Source of the DNA: Diphasiastrum complanatum
Lineage: Eukaryota; Streptophyta; Lycopodiopsida; Lycopodiales; Lycopodiaceae
Direction of reading: 5' to 3'
Length of the DNA stretch: 64,000 nucleotides
Assembly (NCBI GenBank): GCA_029204225.1
Contig: CM055092.1
Coordinates: forward strand, 81,379,464-81,443,463
Each line of letters begins with the position of its first letter. The stretch's first letter is position 1. Under the pieces are notes generated by a model. The model saw nothing but the letters and a program-made list of their open reading frames with translations, had not been told where the DNA came from and did no database searches. The translations under genes were made by a program, and so were the position numbers. This document shows positions 2,711 through 64,000 of this stretch, in pieces.

Positions 2711-2739
2711 GACTTGGTCTCAAACCTTGATTTTTGTTA

Positions 2740-8130: not shown

Positions 8131-8224
8131 TTCCCTACTAACTAAATCATAAGTTTTAATAAGTGCTTTTCCTTCTCTTTATTATTCTTCTTCTTATGCT
8201 TTTCAGATTTATTGTCAGTTAAAA

Positions 8225-8485: not shown

Positions 8486-8500
8486 AACTCTCTCCCTCAA
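8486..8500 (-). other. Polypurine tract of Copia remnant
   Basis: The minus strand reads ttgagggagagagtt immediately before the LTR block at 8485. This purine run at the pol-LTR junction is where plus-strand priming occurs in LTR elements. Its position between pol remnants and an LTR repeated elsewhere in the window supports the call. Confidence 0.6.
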
Positions 8501-11382: not shown

Positions 11383-11725
11383 AATGATCTATTCTTCAAT
11401 GAGTAAACTGGAAAAGAAGTTGACGCGATGCTGGAGATCCACGATTGAGACAATATGCTTTACTCTACAAAGGTAACGAGTTCTAGACTAGTTAAAGTTT
11501 TGAAATTTCTGCATTTCGAGTAAAATGCAATGGGCTCCTACAGACTGTCTGCCTCTTTTACAATTACATTTTATAGAAACTCGAAAGTCAAGATGGATAA
11601 AAAAATTTTATAACACTCGTGTATGTTCTACTAGTAACCGTTGAAAATCATCTATGAAAGATTGTTTGTAATGAGATAAGCCATTCCTCAGTATAGCTGA
11701 TTTTCACTGAAGGTTTGACCAAACA
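11383..11725 (-). pseudogene. Inverted fragment of expansin 3' flank and last codons
   Basis: Read on the minus strand, this equals the end of exon 3 plus the 3' flank of the expansin loci (compare 62705-63037 and 4850-5197). Shared sequences include gataaaaaaattttataacac and tcttcaatgagtaaactgg in inverted orientation. It begins with the last expansin codons at about 11725 and ends at the same duplication boundary (agatcatttgtgt) as the other copies. It holds no functional coding sequence. Confidence 0.85.
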
Positions 11726-12180: not shown

Positions 12181-12635
12181 AATGGAAGGCGCCTTTGGAG
12201 CGATTATTGCGATTATTGAGATTCTTGAAGATCAGTTCATGCTTTTGATGCGTTGAGGTTAGTGCTGATGCTTTGAGGTTGATGCTTGAAGATTTGATAG
12301 CTTTTGAAGTTTTTGTTTTGCTTTTTGTTTCAAAGATAAAGCTTGTTTTGTTTGCTTATGTGAAAGAAAGTGAAGAGACGAAACATAAGTGTTTGAATAG
12401 ATAGTGTTAAGTGTTAAGTGTTTGAACAATAGTGTTTGAATAGATAGTGTTAAGTGTTTGAATAGATATTGTTAAGTGTTTTTTAGAGAGAGAGAGAGAG
12501 AGAATGCGTTTGTGTTTTTGAATTTTGTATTGATTTAGAATGGTTTTGGATATTGTTCTTCTTGTAATAGATTGTTAGTAGTATTTAGGATAGTGTTTGC
12601 TAATAATATATTATTAGATTTGTAATTTGAGAGAA

Positions 12636-12667
<32 letters not shown>

Positions 12668-12964
12668 GAGGTGGAGTGTAGGTGTATGCTTGAAAATATT
12701 GAAAGCTTTTGGAGTTTATGTTTTGCTCTTTTCTTTGAGAAATCAAGTTTGTTCTATATACTTTTGTGAAAGAAAAGTGAAAAGAGGAAAGATAGGTGTT
12801 TGAATAGATAGTGTTAAGTGTTTGAATATTAGTGTTTGATGGTAAATGAATCTTAGATTTTTGATTTGAGAGAGAGAGTGTGTGTGTGTTTTTGAATTTT
12901 GCATTGATTTAGAATGATTTAGGATAGTGTTTATGATTTAGGATAGTGTTTATAATAGATTGTT

Positions 12965-13063
<99 letters not shown>

Positions 13064-13104
13064 GTGTGTATGTGTTGTGTTTTGCATTTTGAATTTAAGA
13101 TAAT

Positions 13105-13135
<31 letters not shown>

Positions 13136-13330
13136 CAGAGAAGGAGAGAGAGAGAGAGAGTTTGTGTGTGTGTTTGATAGAAAATTTATATTGGATTTGT
13201 AATTTAAGAGAGAGAGATGGAGAGAGTGAGTGAGTGAGTGAGTGTACATGTGTTTTGCAATCTAAATTGATTTAAGATTTGAGAGAGAGAGAGAGAGATA
13301 GAGAGAGTTTTGCATTATGCATTAACACCT
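12181..13330 (+). repeat. (GA)n microsatellite cluster with tgtttgaatagatagtg repeats
   Basis: Four or more (GA)n arrays occur: about 12486-12503, 12631-12667, 12968-13061 (the longest, nearly uninterrupted) and 13106-13160, plus shorter ones to 13305. Between them are repeats of gtgtttgaatagatagtgtt (12391-12480, 12795-12835) and of the aattttgcattgatttaga type. The whole 1.1 kb looks like local duplication of a (GA)n-bearing unit. Long serine/leucine frames on the minus strand are by-products of the array, not genes. Confidence 0.85.
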
Positions 13331-17249: not shown

Positions 17250-17301
<52 letters not shown>

Positions 17302-21997: not shown

Positions 21998-22465
21998 CTA
22001 ATGCAACTGAATTAGAGAGTACGTAAAGATTTTTGACTTAGTGCATGTAGTCAGAGTAGTATCTTCATCGAAGATTTTACACTGCTCAAGTGAGAAAGTA
22101 AAAGTGTATCCCTCATTAGTTATCTTAGAAACTGACAACAAGTTCTTTGACAACTGAGGTACATGAAGAACATTCGTGACATAAATAGAAAGATCATTTT
22201 TGAATGCGATCTTGACTGTCCCTTTGCCTTCTATGCATATGGTGCTTGAATCTCCTAGATAGATGAATTGATCTCTACTGTAAGGTACATACTCGATAAA
22301 CCATTCCTTGTGAGAGATCATGTGTTGGGTAGTGCCGCTGTCCAGGTACCAGCTATCATGGTCTTCACGATTCCCTTTGTCCATTAGGTCAAATGGGACT
22401 TCTTGCAATGACCCATGTTCTTCAACAAATACATCAATGTGAGGTTGAGAAATCCTCAAGTCATC
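21998..22465 (-). pseudogene. Copia protease and pre-integrase fragment
   Basis: A continuous 153-codon minus-strand frame. It begins with an acidic linker, then the retropepsin active site in WYLDSGTTQHM, so the DSG triad is intact. It continues through the IEGKGTVKI strand and VLHVPQLSKNLLSVSKIT, the conserved segment between protease and integrase. The frame ends before the HHCC zinc-binding residues. Gag is missing because the fragment is replaced at 22465 by plus-strand gypsy sequence. It is one of the less decayed pieces, but far too short to be autonomous. Confidence 0.88.
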
Positions 22466-22475
22466 TACTTTCTTC

Positions 22476-23486
22476 TCTTGACTTTCTATCTAAAGGTCGT
22501 CTTCCTCTACCAGGCTATAATCACATAGACAATCCACCACATAGGAGTACTGTAAAGGATTACTACCCTTTACATTTCATCGACCAAATGTTTGATCAAT
22601 TAGTTGGAAAGCATATGTATACTTTCATGGACTGTTTTGCGGGCTATAACCAAATAGCCATAGCTCCTGAAGATAAGCTTAAGATGACTTTTGCGACTCC
22701 ATTTGCACATATGCTTATCATGTCATGCCGTTTGGACTTTGTAATGCCCCGGGCACATACCAGAGGTTTATGAATGAATCCTTTGGAAACCTGGTGTCTG
22801 AGCACATTAAGGTGTTTATGGATGACATATGTATAGCAACCAACAATACTAAAGATCACATCAGAGTACTCAAGGAATGTTTTGAAGTGTGCAGAGAAAA
22901 GTCTGTAGCACTAAATCCTAGAAAATGCCTTTTTGTGATTCCATAGGGTATTCTCCTTGGACATGTTATAAGCAAAAATGGGATAACTACCGATCCAGCT
23001 AAAGTCCAGGGTGCTAGAGAGATGTCTACTCCCATTAATGTAAAAGGTGTCAGATCCTTTTAAGAGAGTGTAGGGTATTATAAGAGATTCTTAAAAGATT
23101 ATAGCAAGATTACTTTGCCTTTAGTAGAGCTCCTTGCAAAAGATAAACCCTTTTTGTGGACTGAGGAGTGTCAGTATGTGTTTGACCATTTGAAAGATGC
23201 CTTGACCAAATCACCAATTCTCAGACTGCCCAAATGGGACAAAGAATTCCATCTTATTGTTGCTGCTGGACCTTTGGCCCTAAATTGTGCCTTGTTCCAG
23301 ATTGAGGAACCAAAAATGTTACACCCCATAGCCTTTGCTGGTGTCAAGTTGAAGAGTGTCGAAACTAGATATAGTTATGGAGAAAGAGTGTGCCTAGCGG
23401 TACATTTTGCTGTGTCTAAGTTCAGACACTATCTTATCCATCGGAAAGCAGTCATTTATGCTCCTACCACTGCTATTAAAAGTTAG
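22476..23486 (+). pseudogene. Ty3/gypsy reverse transcriptase and RNase H, broken
   Basis: Successive frames encode the gypsy RT: DYYPLHFIDQM, then FMDCFAGYNQI, then the LMPFGLCNAPGTYQRFM block, then VFMDDI, where the catalytic box is F-M-D-D instead of the usual Y-x-D-D. After a TAG near 22945 come ILLGHVISKNG and, past another stop near 23060, YYKRFLKDYSKI and the RNase H domain (ILRLPKWDKEFHLIV) to 23486. It has at least two stops and one frameshift (about 22715). Integrase and LTRs are absent. It abuts an oppositely oriented Copia fragment. Confidence 0.88.
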
Positions 23487-24707
23487 AATTAAAGTAGAAT
23501 CATTGTGCTACTGTACTGTGGGTCCTATCAGTTGACGAGGATCAGTTGGCCTCGCCACGAGGCAAGTCGACGGGAAGATAGTCGAGACTGTGTGGGGATT
23601 CAGAGACAAGAGTTGTCGGCTAATTAGAACCTCAGCAAACGAAATTTTGAAATTCCGAAGCAGGCTATTTGATGTTTGCAGTCAGTGTGCATTCAATCGG
23701 ACACCATTTGACAAACAGATTGAAGCATCAGAGTTCTAGCAGTAGGGTGACCTCAGAGCAAGAGGATAGGCCTGTCAGAACACTGTGAACAAGAAGCCAA
23801 GAACAGTTTTGCGTGAAAAACCCTGGTCTGGGGTTTGGGAGCACAAAATCATAGATTTCTCTCCATTCTGAACCTCTTTTGAAGCTGTGAAAATCCAAGG
23901 GAGGGTGCCCTGATTAGAAGTAAAAGATCTGAGAAGGCCGTGGACATCCGCGTTTCATTTGTGGAGCAATAAGCACTTTTGGTGGTAGCCGTAGCTACAA
24001 TTCGTGCAAGAGAGAGAGTCGAGGAGGTCGCGGGCCTGCTCGCGCGAGGAACCACAAATAGCGTGTAGCGTTTGCAAGAGGATAGCGGCTTCAAGAGTGT
24101 AGCTCAACACACCGATGCAATGAAGTCCACAAGATCAATCTTCGCAACGATTGACGGACATTATTAATTGCATCTAGACCACAGGACTGAAACCTATCCT
24201 TGGGTTTAAGTGAAGTGGGCCCGAAGGGCAGAGAAGTGCAAAGGGCACTTCATTTTCTTTAAAAATCTTCATACTAAAGTTGGAGTTGAGTCCCTTCACA
24301 AGTGAAGTGTGAAGTTTCTTCAAGGTGAAGAAACAGTTCAAAACCAAGGAAAATCCCTATTTTTGGGTCCTTTGTCCATTTTGACCCGAACGAAAGGCTA
24401 TAACCTCCAAATGAAGGGCACTTGGACTGTACCTGCAAGTATGGTATAACAAAACAAAATGATTGTAGTGGAGAAAGTGTTCGGAGTGTGCCAAAAGTGA
24501 TTTCACCATTCCACTGGGCACATAGTTGGGAGTTGACGACTGAGTGCATTTCGGAAGGCGATGCCAATTCGGCTTACAAATTGGTGGAAAAACAACGAGT
24601 GGCCTGGTAAGGAAAAGAGTGCAGGTCATTATTTTCAACTTCTAACATCACCGTTGGCCTCAACATACTATTTTTAGCCTACGACAAAAGTTTCAAGCAG
24701 TTTTGCA
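23487..24707 (+). other. Probable 5' untranslated/leader region of the Copia at 24.7 kb
   Basis: No coding frame is supported. The stretch lies directly upstream of an intact-looking gag start and is GC-richer than its surroundings, as LTR and leader sequences often are. It contains a small inverted repeat (gcctcg cca cgaggc, near 23551). No clear primer-binding site or TG...CA boundaries could be set, so LTR limits are not given. Confidence 0.4.
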
Positions 24708-25823
24708 ATGCCAAACATGGGAGATTCGATTTTGAGTGAAAGTAGCAAATTGGACGGGATTTCCAACAATGTAGTGCGGAAACTCAAAATGAAAAACATA
24801 CTGATGGAGAAAGATGTGTGGGAAGTTGTCACAGGTGATGAGAGAAGGCTGTCAAATGAAGCGGATATCAAAGTGTTCGACAAAAAGATGAGGAAAGTTT
24901 TGACCTTCATTAACTTGTCAGTGAAGGATCACATTATTACCCACATTTGTGATGTTGTTACATCCAGACAGACAAGGGATGTGCTAAAGGATCAGTTTGA
25001 GACATCAAATCCGTCTAGAGTCATGTTTTTCAAGTCAAAGCTGAATAATGCCCGAATGGAGCAAGGAGAGCACATTCAGATGTACATGACCATAATCAAG
25101 ACAATGAGGGATGAACTGCATTCTATTGGTGAGCACATACGTGATGTGGAGCTGGTGCACAATGCATTGTGCGGCATTGCAGAACCCTATCAGATGTTTG
25201 TGAGTGGAATAGCATCAAGAGAAAGGTTGCCAACCTTTGACGAGCTCACAAGAATCTTGATGCAGGAAGAGCAACGACGAGAAATAGTGAAAGCTAGACG
25301 TCAAAATACTGACGATCAGACACTTGCGACACGCCAAAAACAAGGCAAGGGCAAGGGCAAGAAGAAGTCTAAATAGCAATTTGCCAAGACTCAGGAGGAT
25401 GAGGGATCTTCCAGTAAGACCAAGAATTCCATTGTGAAAAAAAGGGCCATTGGAAGAGTGAATGTCACAAATTCCTGGCGGAACAAGGCAAGGGGAAACC
25501 AAAGCAAGCAGGTAACCTTGTCGATGAGGGTGAGATTGAAGACTCTAGCATCTTTATATTTGCATTGGCATCTAATCAAGATGATCGAGCGTGGTATATT
25601 GACTCGGGAGCCACAAGACACATGATAGGTAACAAGATTTGGTTCAGTAGCTTGAAAGTGTTGGATAATGGAACGTCCATTTCACAAGCAAACGACGATG
25701 TGTGCAAAATCAAGGGAATAGGCACCGTTTCAATCCAACTACCTTTCGATCAATCAAAATCATATGGATTGAGCAATGGGTATCAGTATTTCCCTCAATC
25801 AATAGGCTTATATCTTGTTCGTT
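24708..25823 (+). pseudogene. Copia gag-protease, nearly full-length gag
   Basis: The frame 24708-25376 encodes 222 residues of UBN2-type gag: an N-terminal segment with WEVVTGDE, a central part with DQFETSNPSRVMFFKSKL, then RDVELVHNALCGI and a Lys-rich tail. A TAG ends it. A shifted frame then gives a zinc knuckle lacking its first cysteine (FHCEKKGHWKSEC, about 25424-25465) and a protease with intact WYIDSGATRHM (about 25590). Sequence similarity breaks off after about 25770 without integrase. The family is the same as the minus-strand copies at 54366-54790 and 63200-64000. Confidence 0.88.
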
Positions 25824-36059: not shown

Positions 36060-36938
36060 AAAAACCACTGCTAAAGTAATGAATGAAAGGTGACAACCAA
36101 TAAATATTTTGTATAACACTACTAGGTTGCTTAAGTTAAGGGCTTTGTTGCCAGAATATAGTTTTACATTGAATGAGGATGCTGATAGACACATACAAGT
36201 GTTTAATACATTTTGCTTTATCAATAGAATATATGATCCTGGCCATGAACTAATGTTGTTTGTTATGGCTTTGAAGGGAGAAGCTATACATTGGTATCAT
36301 AATTTACCCTTGGATTCCATTACTACTTTGGAGGAGTTCTACACCCTTTTTATAAGCAGTTTAGACCTCCTTGTGATATAGCTGAGCTAATATCTACATT
36401 GTCAACCATGCAACAAGGACCAATGGAAACTATACAACAACGTGCTCGTTGTTTTAAAGAATTGGTTTTCCAAGTGAATAAAATGACTGATTTGTCTAAA
36501 CTCATAAGACTGTCTTTTTTTTTTAGAGGATTAAAACGTGATATTCAAATAAATGTTCGCCAATCTATGCCATTTACTTTGGATGAGGCTATATGTAATG
36601 CCAAAGCTATTGAGCTAGCCATTAGTCACAGATCAATGCCAACCTGTATTGAGACCATTGGGAGAAAATGATACTATAGCAAGATATCCATCCCATCTTT
36701 TAGATAAGGAAAATATGGAATTTGATGGAGTTCATTTCTCAATGATGAATCAACTATTGAATTTTAAAATAAATCCACCAGAACAAAATACTAGAATCTT
36801 GGATTCTAGATGTAAAAGTAGAAGTGCCAATACGGATATGGATGATATGAAAAAAGTGTTGAAGAAGTGTATGGATAACATGGATAGAACTATATCTTCT
36901 TTATCTTCAGATGTTGAGCTTCTAAAAAGTCAACATTA
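36060..36938 (+). pseudogene. Ty3/gypsy gag, two frames
   Basis: 36109-36381 encodes the start of a retrotransposon gag domain: MALKGEAIHWYHNLPLDSI followed by TTLEEFYTLF, matching the W-x-x-x-L-P-x-x-S-I-x-x-x-x-E-x-x-x-x-F signature of plant gypsy gags. A frameshift at about 36370 leads to 36399-36671 (FKELVFQVNKM, FFRGLKRDIQ, FTLDEAICNAKAIELA), the usual second half. A third frame to 36938 is a Met/Asp-rich coiled segment without a zinc knuckle. Pol is absent; a Copia LTR starts at 36970. Confidence 0.75.
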
Positions 36939-36969: not shown

Positions 36970-39213
36970 TCACGTGCATTTTGACACAAACTAAACGCAA
37001 TAAAGAAATAGTATTGATCCAAAAAACAAGATCAAATACTAATGAGCGCAAAACAATAGCGGATAAAAACTGCGCACTCTAAAGCTATCTCTGAGTAATT
37101 GATAATAAGTCCGAAATAAGAGACTCTATTGATAAGCAGTAGCGCAATCACAACTCTAAAATAAATCTCTAAAAGACTGAGTTAGAATGCTCAAGAGAGT
37201 TCAAGCTTGAAAAATTGATAGAGAGCTAACTACAATACTTTCTAGTTGTGAATGATCTGCTTGATAAGAGCACATGAAGTGTCATGTAATAACACTCAAC
37301 TCCTTCACAATTCACAATCTTCTTAATAATGAGATGTATGAACAACTGATTTACACTAAATTTTTAGGATGTCGAATGCAACTGCCAGTTGGTTGGAGTC
37401 TGCTGGCGTTCATCCAGTTCTTCTCATAAGTTGCTTGCTGATAAATGGCGACAATTGGCTGTGACCAGTCTGTTCGCATAAATGAACATAAACTGCCACA
37501 AGCAAAAAATGCGACACTGCATTTTTACACATAATTCCTAACAGGCAAAAAATGTGAAAAAGGCGACGTTGCATTTTCACACGTAATTCCTAATAGGCAA
37601 AAAATGTGAAAAAAGAAAACACTACATTTGTACACGTAATTCTTGACAGGAAAAAATTGCAACACTGTCGGGTTTGTTAATAATCCAGCACTCCCACTTA
37701 ATCTGAATCCATGAATGCCTTCATCTTTATACTTAGTTCTGCATAGAACTTTCTGTGTGCATCCAAGCTTAATGCTTTAGTAAAAAGATATGTTGTCATA
37801 TCTTGCGTTCAACAGTACTGCAATCTGACCTCTTTGTCAAGAACTATTGGATCCATTCAGCTTGCTTGCGATAAGACCAACTTTACTTTGAGAATCCATC
37901 TGGAACTTAGTATGTTGTCGATTGTATCAAGGACGCTAAGATGTAGTGGTGCCAACAATAGGAAATCAATTCTCTAATACTGAAAGGACAAAATGAACTG
38001 AAGAATATGATATCAATTTGATATCGTGAAAGATATCAAGTATTAGAGCTTTTCGCTTTGATATCAAAATAACATTAGGACCTGATAGAGATGACGGTTC
38101 AGATAAAGAAGTGTCCTAGCACTGATACTGTGATAGTATGATCTGATACCATGTCGGAAATAGGTGAGTAATGGAGTAGCGAAAACTTCCTACTTCCAAT
38201 GCATGACTACGCCTATCAAAAACTGAACAAAGCAGTAGTGATGGGAATCAGTCCAATCTTTAGCAACTAACTTTCGCTAGATACTAAGTGATTACATAGC
38301 CAAACATAAAGTATTGAATTCTCAGACAATTTCTACCAGTTACAAAGCAATATAGAGATGCATGCATTCTAACACAAACCGAACGCAATAACAAAATAGT
38401 ATTGATTCAGAAAAACAAGATCAGATGCTAATGAGCGCAAAACAATAGCGGATAGAAACCATGCACTCTAAAGCTATTTCTGAGTAACTGAGAAAAAGTT
38501 TGAAATAAGCGACTCTGCTGATGAGCAGAAGCGCAAGAGCAACTCTAAAATAAATCTCTAAAAGACTGAGCTAGAATGCTCAAGAAAGTTCAAGCTTAAA
38601 AGCTTGATAGAGAGCTAACTTCAATACTGTTTGGTTGTGAACGATCTACTTGATAATAATGCAGGAAGCGTCATGTAATAACACTCAACTCCTTCACAAT
38701 TCATAATCTTATTCATAATGAGATCTATAAAGAGCTGATTTATACTAAGTAATTAGGTCGTTGAATGCAACTGCCAGTTGGCTGGAGTCTGCTGGCATTC
38801 ATCCAGTTCTTCTCAGAAGTTCCTTGCTGATAAGCAGCGACAATCGGCCGTGAACAGTCTGTCTGCATAAATGAACCTAAACTGCCACAGGCAAAAAAAT
38901 CAAACCCTATTTTTACACGGAATTCCTGACAGGCGAAAAAAGCGAAAAAGACGACACTGCATTTTTACACGTAATTTCTGATAGGCGAAAAATGCGAAAA
39001 AGACGACACTGCATTTTTATACATAATTATTGATAGGGAAAAAATGCGACGCTGTCAGGTTTTTGTAGAGAGAGAAAACCCACCACTATTGTCAAACTCC
39101 GTGTATTTCTACAAACTGTATAAAAACACGCGAAAATCTGTAGAACTGGATAAACAGTTGGATGAAGATTTAAAATCGATTAGTCGATTAGTACGAAGGA
39201 GAATAATCCAACA
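36970..39213 (-). mobile_element. Copia deletion derivative: LTR - stub - LTR
   Basis: Two LTRs of one Copia family flank only about 460 bp. The right LTR (38152-39213, 5' LTR on the minus strand) is complete with TG...CA ends (tgtcgg ... ccaaca). The left LTR (36970-37690) is truncated on its left and has lost an internal block near its right end. Between them are the RNase H end and polypurine tract (37691-37850) joined to the gag start (about 37855-37915, MDSQSKVGLIASKLNG). These are followed by the leader and a tggtatcaga primer site (38142-38151). Almost all of gag-pol is deleted, so it is non-autonomous but retains every cis-acting site. Confidence 0.82.
38142..38151 (-). other. Primer-binding site, initiator-Met tRNA type
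   Basis: The minus strand reads tggtatcaga immediately inside the 5' LTR. It exactly matches the start of the standard Copia primer site complementary to initiator tRNA-Met. Confidence 0.75.
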
Positions 39214-39417
39214 AATTATACTGCGCTACAAATATTAAGCACTCAGATGGGTGCTATTGTGTATTTTTTAGCTCATTTTCAATAAAATCTAAAAATTCGT
39301 AACTGTTGTCTATACTTTTATATCTGAAATTCTTAGAAATCATTTAAAATTTAATCACAGTTTATGGAATCTTGTACTATGCTCAAAACATTAGACATGA
39401 TACATTAGCATAAGGGA
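39214..39417. other. No gene; flank of the Copia derivative
   Basis: AT-rich sequence between the 5' LTR end and the inverted duplication fragment. No target-site duplication can be scored because the other LTR is truncated. Confidence 0.35.
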
Positions 39418-39645
39418 TGGAGATGGTAGGCAAAGGAGATACAAGCCTCCAATATGAAGGTGAACCTCTTGTTAGAGATGTTGGTCATCAAGATGAGACT
39501 CATTACTTAATGTGTGGCTATCATTGAAATTAGATGGAAAAATGTGCAAGGATGTATGAATCAAAATGGTGTTCATGGAGGGGCAGTATGCACACACAAA
39601 GTTGGAAAACTAGTTATTGTACACTAAGAAACTCTAGGAAGGTGG
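39418..39645 (-). repeat. Inverted third copy of the duplication's left part, with unfilled LTR site
   Basis: In reverse complement this matches 3090-3240 and 55265-55478, and then continues without interruption across the point at which the 5.2-kb LTR element sits in copy 2. The reverse complement reads cttcatattggaggcttgta then tctcctttgcc, whereas 55461-55478 and 60700-60716 give the same sequence split by the element. It is therefore the empty site for that insertion. Confidence 0.85.
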
Positions 39646-39689
39646 CTTGAGAGGGATCCTGTGTGTTTGCTTTGGTTGGTATGTTCGTT

Positions 39690-40208
39690 TGTGGTGTGCT
39701 TGTTTGGACCTGAATAACCCTTGGTTGCTTAACTTCTTCCAGGTGATCTGATCTAGTTGGGAGTTGAAGGAGGAATTTGCATTTGTGGGTGGACGACATA
39801 CAAGTATGGAAAGGAGCTTCCATGGGGCAACCCCCAAGATTGGTTCAAGATTATTATTCCTATCCGGAAAGATCGCGGGGAGGAAGTCAGATTTCATGAT
39901 CGACTCCGGATCTTCACAGGAATGTAGTGGAACAGTTCAGCTTGCCGACCAGAAATGTAACATCAACGCTCAAGGTAGAAATAGCAAAGGGAGCACTGGA
40001 CGTAGACAAAGCAACATTGAACATCCCGGTGCAAATTGGGAGATGGAAGGCTAAACTTAGCTTTTTTATTTTAGAGATGGATGCCTTCGATGTAATTTTG
40101 GGCCTTCCCTGGCTAAAGGAACATTGTATTGTAGTTTTGGGTAGGAGCTCAAACTTGGTTCTCTTGGATTACAAGGGACAGATTTGTATGACAAAAGCTC
40201 TGCCTTGA
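39690..40208 (+). pseudogene. Ty3/gypsy aspartic protease, frameshifted
   Basis: 39840-39920 encodes LFLSGKIAGRKSDFMIDSGS, the retropepsin entry strand and catalytic D-S-G-S triad of a gypsy protease. A frameshift near 39925 moves to 39927-40208, whose LPTRNVTSTLKVEIAKG, MDAFDVILGLPWL and YKGQ segments are the remaining protease core. Gag and RT are missing on both sides. Nearby minus-strand frames are shadows. It may derive from the same element type as the gypsy gag at 36 kb, but this cannot be shown. Confidence 0.72.
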
Positions 40209-41335: not shown

Positions 41336-41837
41336 TTGGTGGCCCTCCACCACTTTACATCTTCCAAAAGTGTTATGTGTCGGGAAAGATCCGTGTTTTT
41401 ATTCTGTGAAATCTAAACTTATACTCAGCAAAGTTTTGCCTCTTTCATGACTTTTTCTAACAAAACCTCTTCCACTGAGGTTGCCCCACTACAAGTAATG
41501 CACTGATTCAAACAGTTCGTCAATCGGTGGAGTATAGAGCACACACCAACTGCAAACTCCTTCTCAAGAATTTCTTCTCTGAAAAATTCAGATTTCCGTT
41601 AACCCAAGACTCTGATTCCCACAAGAACTCGAAACACAAGTGTAGTGGAAGGCTTCTCCTATGCTTGAGAAATTTTATAAATCTCTAATCGTTTGTTTTG
41701 ATGCACCAAAGCTGCTATATAGCTCTACTTTCAAAGCCTTCACCGTCATTAAATTCACTATAGAGTTTTTCTCAAATCTGGTTCTCTTCATTGCCCACTG
41801 ATTGCAATCACCCCAAGGCTCTGGTACAAATTTCAAA
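41336..41837 (-). other. Leader of a minus-strand Copia; no coding frame
   Basis: Lies on the gag side of the LTR at 41838-42100. A degenerate initiator-Met primer site (minus strand tttgtaccagagcc) is at 41818-41831. No gag follows on the left, where plus-strand Copia gag begins instead, so the element was cut soon after its leader. Confidence 0.5.
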
Positions 41838-42100
41838 GACTTAGAAGGATCGGTTCAATAAGACAAACACAACATTAAGTTCTTTAAGGCAAGAAGAAGT
41901 AGAATTGCTCCCACGCACACCATCGCCAAAAGACATCTATTCACATCATTAATTGTCAAGTACAAAGAAAACAACTTAAGTACTTAACATAGGGCTTGTA
42001 AAAGTATCGGCCTGATAACTCTAGAACCAAGCAAAGGTGTCAACGTCGAACTTAAAAAGTAATTGTGAAAGAACCACATGTTCATTATTGTTATTTTAAC
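41838..42100 (-). repeat. Copia-type LTR, second copy
   Basis: Colinear with 8225-8485 from aaggatcggttcaat-type sequence to ttgttattttaac. The homology ends on the right exactly where the 8.5-kb copy meets its polypurine tract, which sets the LTR boundary. A primer-binding site follows on the minus strand, so this copy is a 5' LTR. Confidence 0.7.
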
Positions 42101-42869
42101 TACGTCATCAAAATATGATGTATCCGAATTAGAATGTCACGAATTATAATCCAAAGAATCATCCCTTTGATGCCTCCGATGACACAATCTATACTTCTTT
42201 CATGTCTCCTCCTCACCCAACTATCAAGCAGAGTGTTAAAATATGAAATTTTTGGACCTTAATTGGATCTACAATCAATCCACAAGAGGTGTTGGATGCC
42301 AAGTAGACCGATTAATCACTTATAGTACATTACTCATTGATATCATTCAATGCAAGAAATCACAACACAAATAGTGAAAATAACAAGGTATTGCCTCAAA
42401 ATCAAGATCTCTCATCAAGATTGGATTATTTACAATGATGATCTTATCGATCAAGCACATTTCAACCTGGTATGCTGACTCAACATGTCTGGCATGTGTG
42501 GAGAATGTCACATCATCCTAGATCAACCAATAAATGCAAGATAAGCCCCCATCTCGTTGCATCGTAACTTGGTGCCATTGCCTCACCTTTATTTGCTTGA
42601 TTTGAGGTGATTTCTCCTAGCTTATAGGAACTTGTAAGATCAAATCCTACTGATATTTTCCAGATATATACACATGTGGGAATAGCCTCTCACATGTGGA
42701 AAGCATGTCTCATTCACATGGGAATGGATGATCTATCAATGAAATGGTGCCACATGGCAATTTTCTACTTCACTATCTTCTAACTAGTTCATACTTGAGT
42801 CAATCAATCTAACTACCATTTATGACTACCATCCACACATGGGAACAGGCTCCACAAGTGTGATACCAA
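42101..42869. other. No gene seen
   Basis: Sequence between the LTR and Copia pol. It has moderate AT content and several phrases such as catgtgggaatagcctctca and acatgggaacaggctccaca, recalling local duplication. It may be the 3' LTR of the Copia element at 42870-44217; there is no second copy for comparison. Confidence 0.4.
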
Positions 42870-45107: not shown

Positions 45108-46590
45108 CTCTCCTTTAATCTAAATATGCTTTGACTTTCAAACTTAGTTCTGGACAAAATTTTGCGTGTGCATCCAAGCTTAATGCTTTAGTAAAAGTAT
45201 TTGTTGTCATATCTTACGTTCGTCGACAGTACTGCAAGTCAACCTCTCTATCGATAACTTTGCTTCTAACATAGTGATACTTAATTTCAATGTGCTTACT
45301 CCTAGAATGGCATCTAGGGTTGGCTGATAAAGCAATAGAACTTATTACCAAATAAAGTTATCAGAGCATATTGATTTCGATTGATATCTGAAAGTAAGTT
45401 TCCCAACCATACTGCTTCATTTGTAGCTTGAGAGGCTGAGATATAGTCTGATTCAGTAGAAGATAGAGCAATAAAAGTTTGCTTGTGATTGTTTCATGAA
45501 ATAGGACCATTGTTGAGGAAGAATGTAAATTCAGAAGTGGATTTACGAGTGTCTACATCTCCTGTCCAACTTTCATCCAAATGACCACTAAGAATATTCC
45601 ATAACAAATGCAGAGTCCATAGTAGCTCAAAGATATCTCAAAACCCTAATAAGAGCCTATCAATGTGTAATACAAGGATTGGTCATAAACTGACTTAAGG
45701 AACTAACTGCAAAAGCTATTACATAAGAGATCCTATTATAATCTGATAGCGATACTCATGCATGTGCTCCTTCTCTTCCATTGTTCAGGGACAATGGTCC
45801 TTCGACATCTTGAGTCCTGGCTTCATTAGTGAGAGAGATAATTTGCAATTCATTAGATTATATCCGATTAAGACATTGTGAATGTATATTTGCTGAGTAA
45901 TGTAAATCAACTTTTGCTTTTTGTCTCCTTGGATTTGAATACCTAGACAGTAATGAGCTTCACCCAGATCGGTCATGTCAAATTTGTTGTTGAAAAGCAA
46001 TGCGTCGTCTACATACAAAGTGATGATATTAAAAGAATGTTGCCTTGACTTGAAGTAGACATTCAAATCTGAAGTGCTTCGTTTATAGCCGTGATCGATA
46101 AGCAAAGTATTGATCCTTTGAAACCATGCTTGAGCAGATTGCTTCAAGCCATAAACTGCATGATGGAGTTTACGAACATGATTGTGCTTACCTTCGATAT
46201 TCCAACCTATAGATTGAACCATGTAAATGTCCTCTTCAATAACTCCATTAAGATATGTTGTCTATACATCCATTTGATGTATTTCCAAATCTGCTACAGC
46301 AACAAATGACAATAGAATTTTGAAAGAAAAATGTTTAACAACTAGACTGAAGGTCTCAGTGTAGTCAACATTGTGTACCTAAGAAAATCCTCTAGTGACA
46401 AGTCAAGTCTTTCTTCAATCGATACTTTCAACTACCTTGTACTTGATTTTGAATAACCATTTGCAATCAACTACATTTTTGCTGGCAGGTAATTCGACAA
46501 TAGTCTAAGTCTAGTTCTTGATAAGAGATGAATACTCTATATCCATAGCTTCTTTCCATAGATTGGAATCGGCTGACTAAGTGCTTGTTC
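45108..46590 (-). pseudogene. Copia reverse transcriptase/RNase H, same family as the LTR
   Basis: On the minus strand 46590-46240 has broken frames with the RT entry (ELPASKNV, CKWLFKIKY). 46222-45785 is a 145-codon frame with LHHAVYGLKQSAQAWFQRIN and the intact catalytic box TLYVDDALLF, then CLGIQIQ and YITQQIYI. 45780-45120 contains RNase H pieces, including TKHIEIKYH-type sequence near 45290. It ends at the polypurine tract of the 44.2-kb LTR. Gag, protease and integrase are missing beyond 46590. Confidence 0.85.

Positions 46591-48421: not shown

Positions 48422-48493
<72 letters not shown>
48422..48493 (+). repeat. (GA)n microsatellite
   Basis: A pure run of about 36 GA units. It lies just right of element S copy 3, as the array at 17251-17299 lies right of copy 1, so the array belongs to the composite unit. 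Open frames through it on both strands are artefacts. Confidence 0.95.
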
Positions 48494-54245: not shown

Positions 54246-54365
54246 AGAAATTTTACGTGTGGAATCGGCATATATTTGTTACAAGACAAAAGTATATGTA
54301 AAAGAGCCCAACCTTCCTAAAATTCCTCTTGATATTAATGGTTTTAGTTTTCAAAAATCACTTGC

Positions 54366-54790
54366 CATCCGCAATAACTTTGAACTTTTGGTTCACATCC
54401 TTCACAAAGCAACGATCATGAGCGAATTCTACTTTCCACTTTTGATCAGTAATGACTCCAACAGAAAGTAGATTTTTCTTCAAACCTAGTACGTAAAGTA
54501 CCTCCCTGATCATCTTGCTTTTGCCATCAGGTAGTTGGATTGAAATGATGCCTATCCCCTTAATCTTGCACACCTTGCCATTTGCTTGTGAAACGGACGT
54601 TCCATTATCCAATACTTTCATGCTACTGAACCAATTCTTGTTACCTGTCATGTGTCTTGTGGCTCCCGAGTCAATATACCACACTTGATTATCTTGATTA
54701 GATGACAATGCAGATATGAAGATGCTAGAGTCCAAAGGCATGTGCCTCCCGAACATGATATCTTGGTGCTCCCTAGCATGGAGAAAGTAG
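54366..54790 (-). pseudogene. Copia protease/pre-integrase fragment
   Basis: The minus strand carries WYIDSGATRHMTGNKNWFSS with an intact DSG triad, then ISQLPDGKS-type protease core, LYVLGLKKNLLSVGVITDQ and ahdRCFVKDVNQKF. It is nearly the same sequence as 63583-63930 on the minus strand and related to the plus-strand copy at 25565-25770. It is truncated at both ends: by the minisatellite side at 54366, and near 54720-54790, where it passes into unrelated sequence before the segmental duplication. Confidence 0.88.
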
Positions 54791-54861
54791 CAAAATGGCT
54801 CCAATTTTTTGAACCACTAAACGTCCAGCACATGTGATACAATTATCAACATTTTTTCTAT

Positions 54862-55478
54862 TTATGTTATTCATGTAAAATCGATATGTTCATATTAAAA
54901 ATATTGTCAATAAGTTTTCTAATTCATTTAATGCATTCTTTGATAGCACTTTTATTAGTTGTACATTCATGCAAAAGAGTATCAAAGACATGTCATCCAA
55001 CCTAGACACCTCATTCATTTTCTTCTCTACATGTGGAGTAGCTTTTCCACCAGCAACTTTGTTGTTGCTCTTACCCATGTCATTGCAATCAAATTAAGAG
55101 CCTCTATACTCACTTGTGTTCCGTAATCATCTATCATTTGTTTTTATCATTTTTGTTCCTCTATCATCTATCATTTGTGTTCCTTAATCATCTATCATTT
55201 GTTTTTATCATGTCAAAGCATTTTATTAGAAGTGTAATTCACTAAGATTGTAGGAAAAAAACATTTCTATACATGCCACCTTCCAATAGTTTCTTAGTGT
55301 ACAATTACTACTTTTCCAAGTTTGTGTGTGCCTACCCCCCTCCATGAACAACATTTAGATTCATACTTTGCACACTTTTACTTCTGATTTCAATGATAGC
55401 CACACACTTAAGTAATGACTCTCGTCATGATGATGACCAACATCTCTAACAAGAGGTTCACCTTCATATTGGAGGCTT
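54862..55478 (+). repeat. Segmental duplication, copy 2, left part
   Basis: Colinear with 2740-3250. The minus-strand frame 55078-54890 (MGKSNNKVAGGKATPHVEKK ...) is shared with a broken version in copy 1; its function is unknown. A short tandem repeat of catctatcatttgt(g/t)tt occurs at 55129-55205. The block ends at the LTR element; its continuation is at 60700-63037. Confidence 0.85.
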
Positions 55479-56722
55479 TGTTGTAAAGCTACCTTTACAA
55501 GCTTTACTTCTGGCGCCATCGGTGCCAGCTATGTCCCCGGCGCCAGCAGTGCCCCTGCTGCTCCCGGCGCCAACGGCGCCGGCGCTCCTCCCGGCGCCAC
55601 TGTGACCAGAATCTAGCCGGCGCCAAGTTCCTATGGCTGAAAATCTTTAATCGGTTCTAGCGGAGTCCAGAGAGCTCAGATCGATGTGCAATCACCTCAC
55701 ACGATCTAGGCATGGTTAAAGAAAGCCCGGGATCAATAAAATCTAGAGAGAGAAAATGACTTTCTAGAAAGAGAAAATCCTAGAGAGAGAAAAACGTGCT
55801 TTACCAACTTGGGTAGAGTGCTTGGTATGAGGGGGGGTGCCGAATCACACCAATACTATAGGGGAGTGCGGGTTGCGACTCACGACGAGCTCAAACCAAG
55901 TCTCAGCCTCCCTTGCTGGAATGTTGTCATGGCTCTCGCCTTGGCATGCTAGCGCCCCGGAGACTAGGGTCGGTCACACACTTGAAATGTAACCTTCTCA
56001 GATTTATCAATAAAGTGGGATTTTTCTCAAACTGACTCTGATTACCTTCTGGGTTTCAGTGTTCGGTAAAAGCGCCAATTGTAAGGCCGCTTTCAAAATT
56101 TTTTACTTGGCACATAGCCGAGGGTCGTATCCCGGGACGCCAGCGATATGCCGTGGGGACCATTCGGTCCGTGGCGCCAGCGGTATGCTGTCGGGACCAT
56201 TTGGTCCAGGAACTAGTTGTTTCCATATCTGTCGCGGCTTGTGGTTCTGAGTGTTCCTTGCATGAACGTGAATGGGTTAAGCTCTTGGGGAACGGGTTCT
56301 AACCTGTCGGCTGAGTTGGATGGCTTGCTTGGGTGGATGTTATCTGTTTATGGCTGTCCAGTTTGGCGTGGCGCCAGGTTGGCTTCCAGTGCTCGTGACG
56401 AAGCTTTCAGTTGGTTAAGTCTGATGTAAGTCAGACCGCTTGCTTGGAATGGATGTTACTCGTTTGTAACGAAGCTTCGAGTTGGTTAAGTTTGATGTAT
56501 GTCAGGCGGCTTGCTTGGAGGGAAGTCACCCACATCGGGACCTCCGATCTGGCATGGCGCCAGGTTGGATCTCAATGTTGGTTTTCGGAACTTCAAGTTG
56601 GATAAGTCTGATCGTTGTTGGCGAGTTAGCTGCTTGTATGTCAAGTGGGTTTGGATGGCAAGAGTTGAAGGCTAGGAAGCTAAGTCGTGGTTCCCGGCTC
56701 CCTTTGGGATGCCTGCGCTACA
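55479..56722 (+). repeat. 5' LTR of the non-autonomous element
   Basis: The first 150 bp holds about eight ggcgcc hexamers in a CpG-rich stretch (55514-55640). An aataaa follows at 55993-55998 (atcaataaagtgggattttt). The LTR ends with tgcgctaca. Frames inside it (for example 56217-56429) recur in the 3' LTR and are not genes. Confidence 0.95.
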
Positions 56723-56724
56723 TG

Positions 56725-56737
56725 TGGTATCAAAGCC
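56725..56737 (+). other. Primer-binding site
   Basis: tggtatcaaagcc, two bases after the LTR end. It is complementary to the 3' end of initiator tRNA-Met with one mismatch to tggtatcagagcc. This sets the plus orientation of the element. Confidence 0.85.
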
Positions 56738-56819
56738 GACTGGCCAGTCAGCTATGCGGATCTCACAGAAATGGCCACGGTTTGGGGTTCATCAAGACAA
56801 CTGTTGTGGAAGGTGCTGC

Positions 56820-57600
56820 CCACAGTGTAAGCACGGGTGCGTCCACTGTCGGGGTGGTTGGCAGGACGAGGGCTTGATGAGTCAAAGTGCTGCGCTTGAG
56901 GTGTAAGCACGGTCAGTTTCCGCGGTTCGGGCCTGGCGCCATCTGCACGTAGGACAAATGAGGCAATGTGCTCCCATTAGGATGGTGTAAGCACGGTTTG
57001 TGCCTTGTGGGGTGCGGGGTGACATATTCGCGATGGCCACCGTTCGTTTAGCTATAAGGGCTATCGACCAAATTTGGTGGGGGCGTTACTGAGGCAATGT
57101 GCTGTCTAACGGTGAAAGCACGGGTGCGTCCACGATTTGGGTGTTATGCTGCCGATCGTTTAGCTATAAGGGCTATCGACTAAATTTGGTGGGGGCGTTA
57201 CTGAGGCAATGTGCTGCCTAACGGTGAAAGCACGGGTGCGTCCACGGGGGTGGTATATTCAAGGATAGCTGCCATTCGTTTAGCTATAAGGGCTATCGAC
57301 CAAATTTGGTGGGGGCGTTACTGAGGCAATGTGCTGCCTAACGGTGAAAGCATGGGTGCGTCCACGATTGGGGGGTACGCTGCCGATCGTTTAGCTATAA
57401 GTGCTATCGACTAGATTTGGTGGGGGCGTTACTGAGGCAATGTGCTGCCTGACGGTGAAAGCATGGGTGCGTCCACGGGGGTGGTATATTCAAGGATAGC
57501 TGTCGATCGTTTAGCTATAAGGGCTATCGACCAAAAAGTGGTGGGGCGTGACTGAGGCAATGTCCTGCTTAATGGTGAAAGCACGGATGGTTGGAGGGGT
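56820..57600 (+). repeat. Tandem repeats with alternating spacer, inside the LTR element
   Basis: Five units start at cgtttagctataag (57045, 57157, 57277, 57388, 57508), spaced 112, 120, 111 and 120 bp. Two spacer types alternate: one with gatttggg ... gctgccgat and one with ggtatattcaaggatagctg. The real period is therefore a dimer of about 231 bp. Upstream, 56827-57000, a related gtaagcacgg motif recurs about every 80 bp. No protein is encoded. Confidence 0.88.
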
Positions 57601-59440
57601 GTCCTATGTGGGCTGATTCTGTGATCGATTTGTATGGGCGCGGCCAGGCAAAGGTCCGTTGGCAGGACCATCTCAAAGGGGGACCTTGTCTTTGTTACTT
57701 GTTAGTAAACTTGCCTGAGTGTCTTACTTGTATGTATTCGTGGTGAGTCTTAGTACTCGTGCTTTGCCTAGTTTGCATGATTGCTTGTGATACAAGGAGC
57801 TGATGGCTCGAGAAGGAACCTTTTCTTTTGAAGGCTGATACCATCAAACAAAGAGGACTAGAGAATCTGTGGGGCGGATTTGCAGTTCAAGTACTCACAC
57901 GTGAACGACAACGAAACGACTGAATGTTTGCAAAGGATGGATGGCTAGCCTGTTTCTTGGGTTAGTTTCATTTGCGACAACGCCCACCAGACGCAAGCAG
58001 GAAGTCAAAAGTTGGAAAGGGCAATTTCAGGGGAGATCTTCTATGGAGCAGTTGGTCTTCATTTTGGGACGGCCACCTTCGGAACTGAAACTCACTGAGC
58101 ATGGGTGATATCCAGTATCAGTTGGGTTTTTCCTCAAAGGGGAAAAGACTAGGATCCTCTTCAGAGATTGGCAACAAGTTGGATCGAGCCATAATCCTAG
58201 CAGATGGGAAGCAAAGTGTTGGAAAGGCTTTTTGTCCGAAGAACTCTACTCTAAGTCCGATCAGCTGATTTTATAAGTGGAGGGGAACTACCACACACAC
58301 CTCTCTCTTGGGGCAAATTTTGAATGAAAGTTGATCAAAATGGGGGCAAATTCAAGGTGACCTAGCCATACTCACACGAGGAGACTGGCGAACTTTGGAC
58401 CTAATAAGTTGACAAGTTTTTGTTGTGGAAAGGAAAGTTTGTTATAGGCTTTCTCTGGACCAGCAATGATGAGGAAACATATCAGTACGCTGGCTTGTGT
58501 TACGTGTAAGGCAACTGATCAATGAAGGAACTGTGAAAGTTGAGTCTTGCATGAGAGACTTGGTATTTCGAACGGACGCTAAGGGACAGTTCGCGTTGAG
58601 ATCGGACTAGTGCAAACTCTGGGTGCATGTGTCTGATTCAAAGAGAGCTACTTGAAGCCAAGCTCGATGTACACTTCTTGTTTTGAGTGTGAGGCGATTG
58701 ACCAGTCATGGAATTGTGAAAGTCAAGTTTTGCGTGATGGACATGGTGTTTCAAACAAACGCGAAGAGATAGTTCAGATGCGGATCAAACTGGTGCAACC
58801 CTTTGGCTTTCCACGAGGTCAATGGTTATATTTGGGCTGATTCAAAGAGCTACTTCAAGCTAAGTGAGAGGTGCATTGCGGAGTACTCAATCTTTGCCTA
58901 CCTTAAAGAGCCAAGATGGAAAAGTATCAAGATCAGGCTGGGACAAGGAGAGAAATCAAGGTGCAGAAACAACAAGGCACAGAGTGGACCATAAAGTGGG
59001 CAATCAAACGATAAATCCTTTGGCTCAGGGAGCCTTGATACCTGTGCGGAACTGAACAAATCTGGAGCTCAGGGAGCTCAACACAAAGTGCATCAAGGAC
59101 AAATCAGGAGCTCAAAGGAGTTCCAAAGTCGAAAGTCAGAAGCGACAGGGGCGTACATTTCAAAGAAAGGCCTCTGTCACTAGTTAATAAGGTTCTCGGG
59201 TTTTACGAAAGCGATATCAAATCTACGCTTTTCCCAGACAAAGATATTTTTTTTTCAAGCTATGTAATTTTTCAGTACAAAGAAAGAGCTGAGCCTCCGA
59301 CTTGTGGTGTGCCAGCTTCAATGTTAATAAAAAGTGGCAAGTAAATTGAGTACTGTGCCAAGTAGCTTAAATGTATAGTCATTTTAATTCGGAGACACCT
59401 TTACTTTAATCTGACATCTGATGAGGACATCAGATTTTAT
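57601..59440 (+). other. Interior of the LTR element, no coding domain
   Basis: Unique-looking sequence between the tandem repeats and the purine tract. Two paragraphs are partly duplicated: 58490-58650 and 58670-58860 share gatggacatggtgtttc/gagagacttggtatttcg-type and gtgcaa-type phrases. The longest frames are about 60 codons. There is no similarity to Copia or gypsy domains. Confidence 0.7.
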
Positions 59441-59454
59441 AAAGGTGGGGTGGA
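59441..59454 (+). other. Polypurine tract
   Basis: aaaggtggggtgga directly before the 3' LTR. The purine run at this point is required for plus-strand priming and agrees with the orientation given by the primer site. Confidence 0.8.
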
Positions 59455-60699
59455 TGTTGTAAAGCTACCTCTACAAGCTTTACTTCCGGCGCCATCGGCG
59501 CTAGCTATGTCCCCGGCGCCAGCAGCGCCCCTGCTGCTCTTGGCGCCAACGGCGCCGGCGCTGCTCCCGGCGCCACTGTGACCAGAATCCAGCCGGCGCC
59601 AAGTTCCTATGGCTGAAAATCTTTGATCGGTTCTAGCGGAGTCCAGAGAGCTCAGATCGATGTGCAATCACGTCACACGATCTAGGCATGATTAAAGGAA
59701 GCCTGGGGATCAATAAAATCTAGAGAGAGTAAATGACTTTCTAGAAAGAGAAAATCCTAGAGAGAGAAAAACGTGCTTTACCAACTTGGGTAGAGTGCTT
59801 GGTATGAGGGGGGGTGCCGAATCACACCAATATTATAGGGAAGTGCGGGTTGCGACTCAGGGCGAGCTCCAACCAAGTCTCAGCCTCCCTTGCTGGAATG
59901 TTGTCATGGCTCTCACCTTGGCATGCTAGCGCCCCGGAGACTAGGGTCGGTCACACACTTGAAATGTAACCTTCTCATATTTATCAATAAAGTGGGATTT
60001 TCCTCAAACTGACTCTGATTACTTTATGGGTTTCAGTGTTCGGTAAAAGCGCCAGTTGTAAGGCCGCTTTCAAAATTTTTAACCTGGCACATAGCTGAGG
60101 GTCGTATCCCGGGACGCCAGCGATATGCCGTGGGGACCATTCGGTCCGTGGCGCCAGCGGTATGCTGTCGGGACCATTTGGTCCAGGAACTAGTTGTTTC
60201 CATATCTGTCGCGGCTTGTGGTTCTGAGTGTTCCTTGCATGAACGTGAATGGGTTAAGCTCTTGGGGAACGGGTTCTAACCTGTCGGCTGAGTTGGATGG
60301 CTTGCTTGGGTGGATGTTACCTGTTTATGGCTGTCCAGTTTGGCGTGGCGCCAGGTTGGCTTCCAGCGCTCGTGACGAAGCTTTCAGTTGGTTAAGTCTG
60401 ATGTAAGTCAGACCGCTTGCTTGGAATGGATGTTACTCGTTTGTAACGAAGCTTCGAGTTGGTTAAGTTTGATGTATGTTGGGCGGCTTGCTTGGAGGGA
60501 AGTCACCCACATCGGGACCCCCGAACTGGCATGGCGCCAGGTTGGATCTCAATGCTGGTTTTCGGAACTTCAAGTTGGTTAAGTCTGATCGTTGTTGGCG
60601 AGTTAGCTGCTTGTATGTCAAGTGGGTTTGGATGGCAAGAGTTGAAGGCTAGGAAGCTAAGTCGTGGTTCCCGGCTCCCTTTGGGATGCCTGCGCTACA
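59455..60699 (+). repeat. 3' LTR of the non-autonomous element
   Basis: Matches the 5' LTR end to end. Differences are mainly single transitions plus one-base indels, for example c/t changes in the ggcgcc-rich head. Its right end is 697 bp upstream of the expansin ATG, so its promoter and poly(A) signals point toward the gene. Confidence 0.95.
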
Positions 60700-61395
60700 G
60701 GCTTGTATCTCCTTTGCCACCCGGTCTCCATCTGCTTTTCCTCTACTCATATGACTTGTCGTTAACTTTCATTTCAGTGCATCAATGATAATGAGCGTTT
60801 AAAATTTGCACCTAAATACAACATGACATGTAGGGCATGAACAACATTAAATGAGCATAACACTCTTAAATTTAAGCCTTTAAGGAATCGGAGTGCTTGC
60901 CGTCCCTTTGTTTGAGCAAACACAAAACAAAAAACAAAACCAAAAAATGGTAAGTTTAGTTGCTGAAAAATTTGAATTATTTATTTGGCGCCATTCCACC
61001 CGTCGTATGTCCGGATAATCAGTATCAGCCCTAAATTGACGAAAATTTATAGGAGTGATCCTCTTCTCTTTTTCTGATTTACTACGGCTTTCATTTCGTG
61101 CATATTACCCTCATCCTCCTCCTGCCACTCTTCTCTCGAGAGCACCGGCCCTAGAGGGTTGATATACGTACAAGCAGGTGGACGCATCTACGTGCAAAGA
61201 CTGTGATTATAGCTGGACTTGAGCGCTCGCAAACCATCGAATACTCACGCAGCACTTCAATAGGTAAGCGTACTATCAGTGAGGAACTTAAGAGGTTTCC
61301 CTGCTGCATTTCTTATTCGGTTTATTAGAACTTATCTGTCGATATACCTGACACAGTTCTGTGGGAGCGTACCTATGTTTTTTGGTGACAGGACA
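60700..61395 (+). promoter_or_regulatory. Expansin upstream region and 5' UTR
   Basis: This segment is shared with copy 1 (3250-3840), so it belongs to the original locus. It contains an a/c-rich stretch (60910-60945) and a pyrimidine-rich region (61055-61135, tctctttttc, catcctcctcc) typical of plant 5' UTRs. No convincing TATA box was identified. The LTR element cuts the upstream region at 60700, displacing any more distal elements by 5.2 kb. In-frame open sequence extends upstream to 61279 but is unlikely to be translated, because a signal peptide starts at 61396. Confidence 0.5.
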
Positions 61396-62742
61396 ATGGA
61401 TCGCTTCATGGCACTATCAGCTTCATTGGCGACGCTGTTAATGCTAAGCTATTACCAAGGTTCGCAAGCACGATATTCATCTGAACCGTCTTGGAGGCAC
61501 CGGAGGCACTGGAATGAAGCGCACGCTACCTTCTATGGAGGTAGTGACGCAGCAGGCACAATGGGTAAGTCACTGGCTTTACCTGTGCAAGGAGTGCACA
61601 CATTGTTTAACAGCAACGGCACTTTGAACTTAAGTTTGCTTAATGACACTCTGCGATTCATACTTCTCGTTGTAATCTATCGGCTGTGATTAGATGGCGC
61701 ATGCGGATATGGAAACCTCTACAGCCAGGGTTACGGTACAAATACAGCAGCACTCAGCACGGTATTGTTTAAGAATGGCGCAGCTTGTGGTGGATGCTAC
61801 GAAATCAAGTGTTGGAACGATACCCAGTGGTGCAACCCTGGAAATCCATCTGTGTTTATTACGGCTACAAACTTATGCCCTCCAAACGACGCCCTTCCGA
61901 ATGACAATGGAGGTTGGTGCAACATTCCCCGAGAGCACTTTGATATGTCACAGCCGGCGTTCTCTCAAATCGCTTTTTGGCGTGCAGGCATTGTGCCTGT
62001 TCTCTATCGAAGGTAGCATCTTATAAACATTGGTCGGTCTATCCTCCATAGATATACAGTGCGAGCTTCCGAATGTTGCATATTTCATTAGAGCCTGCTG
62101 ACTTTTGTCATAAGCTATTATATAATTCCAGTCACAAGCTACCATTAATTTACCGCTCCACGCGATTGCAAGTTACCGTAACCTATTTGTGCCCTTGGGT
62201 ATTGTGGTCTTTTCGACCTTGGAATATAATTTATTTATGATTGAGAACTGCTACTAGTACTTTTCGGCATCCGTTATGATTGGGATACATGCATTCAAGC
62301 TCATACATATGTTGCACTTGCTATATTCCTGTAAGATATTCGTTAAAGGCGACATTTCTAGAGGTTAGTACTTTAAAATTTTACCAGAGACCTTTTGACG
62401 TCAAAAGACTGAAATATGTGATTGATGCATGTAGAGTGCCATGCCTCAAGGATGGAGGTATGCGTTTCACTCATCAACGGCAACCCCTGGTTTAATCTCG
62501 TGCTGATCAGTAATGTGGGTGGCGTGGGCGACATATCTGCTGTTTCAGTTAAAGGTTCCGAAACTGGCTGGATTCCCATGAAGCGAAACTGGGGACAGAA
62601 CTGGGAGTGTGACACTGTGCTGGTAGGTCAAAGTTTATCCTTTCATGTCACGACAGCCGACGGAAAGAATATCACTTCTTACGATGTTGCCCCTTTAGAT
62701 TGGCAGTTTGGTCAAACCTTCAGTGGAAAGCAGTTCTACTAA
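61396..62742 (+). CDS. Alpha-expansin (EXPA), three exons, frameshift in exon 3
   Basis: Exons 61396-61564, 61694-62012 and 62435-62742 have gt/ag introns of 129 and 422 bp at the two positions conserved in plant EXPA genes. With one extra T at 62471 discounted the length is 264 residues, normal for the family. Residues 1-25 form a signal peptide (hydrophobic LATLLML, end GSQA). The N-terminal double-psi barrel holds [23 protein letters not shown], eight cysteines between 60 and 166, and the HFD motif at 138-140. The C-terminal CBM63-like domain has [12 protein letters not shown] and WGQNWE. Expansins loosen cell walls without hydrolysis, acting outside the cell. As written, the T shifts the frame after residue 175 and a stop follows 7 codons later, removing the wall-binding domain. 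Copy 1 at 4605 lacks this T. Confidence 0.93.
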
Positions 62743-63199: not shown

Positions 63200-64000
63200 A
63201 TCCACGTCTTACGTGACATATCATCAATAAAGGTCATGAAATAGAAGGCTTTACCTAAGGACATGGTCCTCATAGGCTCGCGTACATCTGTGTGATTAAA
63301 TCTAGGTTGTTCTTTGCTCTTGCAACACCACCTTTATTGAACTTCTCTCGATGTTGCTTCCCATATACACATGATTCACACATCGATTTCAAGTGGTCTT
63401 CTATAGTAGGCAATCCTGTTGCCATCTTCAATCTGCTCATCAAACTGAGGCTTCCCAAGTTTAAGTGACCAAGCCTCTTATGCCACAACACAGTCTGTGA
63501 TGGAATGGATGATACGAGTCCATGTTGCCCCTTGATTGTAGCGTTCAACCTGTACAATTTTGTATTGGGCTCCCTTACTCCATCCGCAATAACTTTGAAC
63601 TTTTGGTTCACATCCTTCACAAAGCAATGATCATGGGCAAATTCGACTTTCAACTTTTGATCAGTAATGACTCCAACAGAAAGTAGATTTTTCTTTAAAC
63701 CTGGTACGTAAAGTACCACCCTGACCGTCCTGCTTTTGCCATTAGGTAGTTGGATTGAAACGGTGCCTATCCCCTTGATCTTGCACACCTCATGATTTGC
63801 TTGTGAAACAGACGTTCCATTATCCAACACTTTCAAGCTACTGAACCAATTCTTGTTACTTGTCATGTGTCTTGTGGCTCCCGAGTCAATATACCATGCT
63901 TGATCATCTTGATTAGATAACAATGCAGATATGAAGATGCTAGAGTCTTCAATCTCACCCTCATCGACAAGGTTACCTGCTTGCTTTGGTTTACCTTTGC
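63200..64000 (-). pseudogene. Copia protease and integrase start, runs off the window
   Basis: The minus-strand frame from 64000 carries the end of gag (KPKQAGNLVDEGEIEDSSIF) and the protease with intact WYIDSGATRHM. VLYVPGLKKNLLSVGVITDQ follows, then the integrase HHCC region (LWHKRLGHLNLGSL ... CESCVYGKQHREKF). A stop interrupts at about 63270, followed by broken core sequence (FIDDMSRKTW) to 63200. This is the best preserved Copia pol segment here, with 217 uninterrupted codons. The 5' half of the element lies beyond 64000. Confidence 0.9.

Follow-up and report, generated by a model that had tools for sequence, protein, structure and literature searches.

The window analysed here is a stretch of 64,000 nt on contig CM055092.1 of Diphasiastrum complanatum (GCA_029204225.1); it contains two long copies of an alpha-expansin-like locus (copy 1 and copy 2), a short inverted fragment related to both at 39.4 kb, and a 5.2-kb element flanked by long terminal repeats (LTRs) that interrupts copy 2 (Table 1). 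The repeat around this insertion consists of the region upstream of an alpha-expansin-like gene, an identity that the initial annotation had missed. Expansin domains adjoin both long copies; in copy 2, the gene downstream of the element presented matches to DPBB_1 (61690–62013, E = 1.7e-23) and Expansin_C (62422–62739, E = 2.6e-28). The gene model of copy 2, with splice sites judged by eye, includes two introns, and exon 1 encodes the motif HATFYGG, which we take to mark alpha-expansins; the label "alpha" is based on such presumed motifs, and the solved structures matching copy 2 are all beta-expansins or Phl p 1, a related pollen allergen. Both domains, the two introns, and HATFYGG are shared with alpha-expansin genes; unlike these genes, however, both copies in the window are broken. 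The reading frame of copy 2 is disrupted by a frameshift early in exon 3, and, barring an assembly error at this position, this gene is therefore probably a pseudogene. Copy 1 lacks exon 1 and carries an in-frame stop, and thus both copies look like pseudogenes. Broken pieces of exon 3 and gene-downstream sequence are also scattered at 5320–5891 (with frame breaks), 8219–8489, 11307–11724 (minus strand), and 41832–42101.

Table 1. Features of the expansin-like copies and of the LTR element in the 64,000-nt window.
Feature	Coordinates	Strand	Remarks
Copy 1, expansin pseudogene and upstream region	2730–5197	+	Lacks exon 1; about 100 bp missing across the insertion point
Paralogous target copy without the element (piece of an expansin upstream region)	39416–39649	−	GGCTT once, at 39443–39447
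Expansin upstream region to the left of the element, occupied copy	54860–55478	+	Ends in the first GGCTT
Target-site duplication GGCTT, copy one	55474–55478	+	
5′ LTR	55479–56722	+	1244 bp
Internal part	56723–59454	+	No credible Pfam match
3′ LTR	59455–60699	+	1245 bp
Target-site duplication GGCTT, copy two	60700–60704	+	
Right flank, rest of the copy 2 expansin upstream region	60705–61395	+	
Alpha-expansin-like gene, copy 2	61396–62742	+	Exon 1, 61396–61564; exon 2, 61694–62012; exon 3, 62435–62742

The element (55479–60699; 5221 bp) starts with TG, ends with CA, is flanked on each side by GGCTT, and lies 696 bp upstream of the ATG of copy 2 at 61396. Its two LTRs are 97.0% identical, with 37 differences over 1244 aligned sites (K2P = 0.0304). 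Every internal stop-free stretch of 45 aa or longer (28 in total, one of them scanned inside a longer stretch) was compared with Pfam in scans with E cut-offs of 0.001, 0.05, 0.1, 0.1, and 0.1; these yielded no credible match and no Gag or Pol domain, and the sole row reported for the internal part was UFC1, whose match (E = 0.095) falls short of the curated cut-off of this family. Barley LARDs (large retrotransposon derivatives) are larger than this element. The absence of a credible match in these internal stretches, together with paired TG...CA LTRs and a target-site duplication, points to a LARD-like, non-autonomous LTR retrotransposon; the rule for LARDs stated in PMC6022998 (two LTRs, no recognised coding domain, and a length of at least 2000 bp) describes this element in its paired LTRs, its lack of a recognised domain, and its length.

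Directly after the 5′ LTR, the element presents TGTGGTATCAAAGCC, a putative primer-binding site judged by its motif, which resembles that for initiator tRNA-Met. A purine-rich stretch ahead of the 3′ LTR, AAAGGTGGGGTGGA, is interrupted by T and did not pass a test requiring seven consecutive purines. Inside the element, at 57043–57586, lie tandem repeats whose periods range from 111 to 231 bp. Just 5′ of the 3′ LTR (59395–59460), an 8-bp perfect stem closes an AGGA loop (ATCTGATG-AGGA-CATCAGAT), and the outer stem of the predicted fold pairs with the purine-rich stretch; this hairpin has a predicted energy of −21.9 kcal/mol (z = −3.8; equalled by none of 200 shuffles) and is the sole stem of at least 6 bp with an AGGA loop in the window. 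Comparable hairpins are present in some Ty3/gypsy elements. A search of the whole window against Rfam at the gathering threshold found no family and hence no sign of a hammerhead ribozyme; identity as a retrozyme, which would place such a ribozyme in the LTRs, was rejected at this threshold. A pattern taken from the LTR start had no matches among viral contigs.

The window also contains fragments of other repeats. Two copia fragments on the minus strand, 54361–54816 (Pol_BBD) and 63273–63998 (Pol_BBD and gag_pre-integrase), lie on either side of the copy 2 locus and are 92.7% identical (54365–54732 versus 63580–63947), possibly representing a tandem duplication or two insertions. Additional copia remnants include a gag remnant adjoining copy 1 (2314–2736, minus), a Pol_BBD remnant (22001–22489, minus), a remnant with gag and Pol_BBD (24678–25822, plus), and an RVT_2 remnant (45788–46261, minus). 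Ty3/gypsy-like remnants were found at 36303–36668 (Ty3_capsid match) and at 39900–40205 (RVP_2 protease match), the latter adjoining the 39.4-kb fragment. A direct repeat of about 700 bp (36975–37675 and 38363–39062; 84.6% identical), with a 52-bp tandem array in each arm (37504–37657 and 38909–39049), could represent either a duplication or a small, old LTR element. Long GA microsatellites (12629–13160, 17252–17299, and 48423–48493; up to 46.5 copies) explain the GC-skew peak at 12–14 kb.

The initial annotation had proposed that the 39.4-kb copy reads straight across the insertion point, with GGCTT duplicated around the element in the occupied copy, and our alignments and searches bear this out. 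In a local alignment of the reverse complement of the 39.4-kb fragment with the joined flanks of the element, in which gap columns were counted as differences, 212 of 240 columns were identical (39649–39416 against 55272–55478 joined to 60705–60732). GGCTT is present once in the 39.4-kb copy, at an uninterrupted junction, as compared to one GGCTT on each side of the element in the occupied copy, and a three-way alignment runs unbroken through CTTCATATTGGAGGCTTGTATCTCCTTTGCC in the 39.4-kb copy. This 31-mer occurs a single time in the window (39429–39459, minus strand); its left part (ending in GGCTT) has one additional occurrence, at 55462 on the left edge of the element, and its right part (beginning with GGCTT) also has one, at 60700 on the right edge. 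A BLAST search of the window with the joined flanks recovered the 39.4-kb copy at E = 7e-78.

Similarity to the flanks extends over 207 bp on the left and just 27–28 bp on the right; the pairwise alignment suggested in the initial annotation favours the claim but with a right arm shorter than the one proposed (to 60760). Even this short right arm matches beyond chance: the first 14 bases to the right of GGCTT all match at 39.4 kb, whereas the best of the 127,776 other placements on either strand of the window reaches 11, and 16 of the first 20 bases match, as compared to a best of 13 among 127,764 others. The outcomes that would have spoken against an empty site (a footprint, a remnant solo LTR, or similarity on one side only) were looked for as well; the alignments and the single GGCTT rule out a solo LTR or footprint, no LTR remnant is present, and both sides are similar. 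The 39.4-kb fragment is thus a homologous copy in which both flanks of the insertion are continuous, the target-site sequence is present once, and no remnant of the element is found. This corresponds to the usage of related empty site (RES or RESite) in PMC4054914, i.e., another genomic location that is homologous to the insertion flanks, lacks the element, and has a single copy of the target site; nothing of substance differs from that usage, and the homologue described here is particular in being a short, inverted fragment of the upstream region of a gene.

Copy 1, although longer, was rejected as an empty site: about 100 bp are absent exactly at the insertion point, with 15 bp in place of the 52 bp to the left and 50 bp to the right of this point. 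Because copy 1 lacks this stretch, the empty junction is visible in the 39.4-kb fragment alone, a reason for the unsuitability of the longer copy (2.7–5.2 kb) that the initial annotation did not give.

The initial annotation had also regarded the empty junction as direct proof that the repeat was copied before, or independently of, the insertion. This interpretation is supported, with the qualification that the 39.4-kb copy is a paralogue rather than the same locus, and its lack of the element therefore gives no order of events by itself; the order is drawn from divergence, by which the copies most likely separated before the insertion. The 39.4-kb copy differs from copy 2 at 19 of 230 sites (K2P = 0.0876) and from copy 1 by a K2P of 0.0861, and four stretches compared between copies 1 and 2 presented K2P values of 0.1073, 0.1133, 0.1258, and 0.1172. 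Divergence between the LTRs is lower than divergence between host copies (K2P of 0.030 versus 0.086–0.126), suggesting that separation of the host copies most likely came first; the proportion of differing sites in the LTRs is significantly lower than that for the module shared by the 39.4-kb copy and copy 2 (Fisher, p = 0.0005) and than that for the upstream regions of copies 1 and 2 (Fisher, p = 6e-13). For the part common to all three copies, K2P was 0.0884 between copies 1 and 2 and 0.1187 between the 39.4-kb copy and copy 2; this shared stretch is short (155–160 sites), and host distances are thus rough (0.086–0.119). Rates of 1.3e-8 to 2e-9 per site per year, which are uncalibrated for this plant, would put the age of the insertion at 1.2 to 7.6 million years; only the order of events should be trusted, not the absolute age. 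Gene conversion between the LTRs could make the insertion seem younger than it is, which would weaken even the order.

Such conversion is central to one alternative, in which the insertion predates the 39.4-kb copy, this copy was itself derived from another, unoccupied expansin copy, and the LTRs were later homogenised. In the short common part, the 39.4-kb copy shows no closer relationship to copy 2 (K2P = 0.119) than to copy 1 (K2P = 0.086), and it therefore need not derive from copy 2, as this alternative supposes; nevertheless, the LTR differences (37/1244) fall well below those of the module (19/230; p = 0.0005), and we consider an older insertion improbable, even if it is the least improbable of the alternatives. 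Slightly less credible is the possibility that the 39.4-kb module is itself a small, MITE-like transposable element that is also present in expansin upstream regions. The module has sharp edges at 39.4 kb, ATCCCT was seen by eye near both of these edges, and an inverted pair of 9 nt, complementary at 8 positions, links the module end (39641–39649) with 39442–39450. However, the second arm of this pair sits at the insertion point rather than at the other module edge (39416), and by our estimate about 4 to 5 such pairs (9 nt, one mismatch) would arise by chance in 291 bp; by this estimate the pair and the ATCCCT motifs are no better than chance. In addition, similarity runs hundreds of bases beyond the module in copies 1 and 2, and the window holds only three copies of the module; a MITE-like origin is thus disfavoured.

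Two further readings are the least probable of those considered. If the 39.4-kb copy had once been occupied and had lost the element precisely, the site would be restored rather than never occupied; sequence alone would not separate a perfectly restored site from one that had always been empty, and we found nothing in favour of such a loss. LTR elements are usually lost through recombination between their LTRs, leaving a solo LTR with both copies of the target site; the single GGCTT and the absence of an LTR at 39.4 kb therefore count against precise loss, which we regard as very unlikely. The chance appears equally slight that the 3′ LTR, which has the same orientation as the gene, acts as a new promoter 696 bp upstream, with the inverted 39.4-kb fragment giving rise to small or antisense RNA directed at the upstream region; exon 3 is broken, and such regulation would therefore be unlikely to matter. 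A literature search combining expansin, LTR retrotransposon, and promoter insertion returned no match, and looser terms returned none that were relevant by title.

The simplest account is ordinary integration of an LTR retrotransposon, the target being one of several expansin upstream regions that had diverged from each other, and we place a probability of about 94% on the 39.4-kb fragment being a paralogous related empty site that was copied in inverted orientation, with the LTR insertion arising afterwards in another copy. A fragment of the alpha-expansin upstream region would have been copied, inverted, to 39.4 kb; later, the non-autonomous element would have integrated at the homologous place of another copy, ahead of the copy 2 start codon (61396); a staggered cut of 5 bp at GGCTT, followed by fill-in during repair, would have placed GGCTT on both sides. 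The enzymes for integration were presumably supplied in trans by an autonomous relative, and the 39.4-kb fragment probably has no present function. Both related empty sites and non-autonomous LTR elements close to plant genes are commonplace; the finding is real and correctly read, yet it is ordinary plant genome history that changes no general view. The empty site at 39.4 kb delimits the element at single-base resolution, which aids annotation, and within a single window it gives a relative order in which the expansin copies most likely split before the LTR element was inserted.
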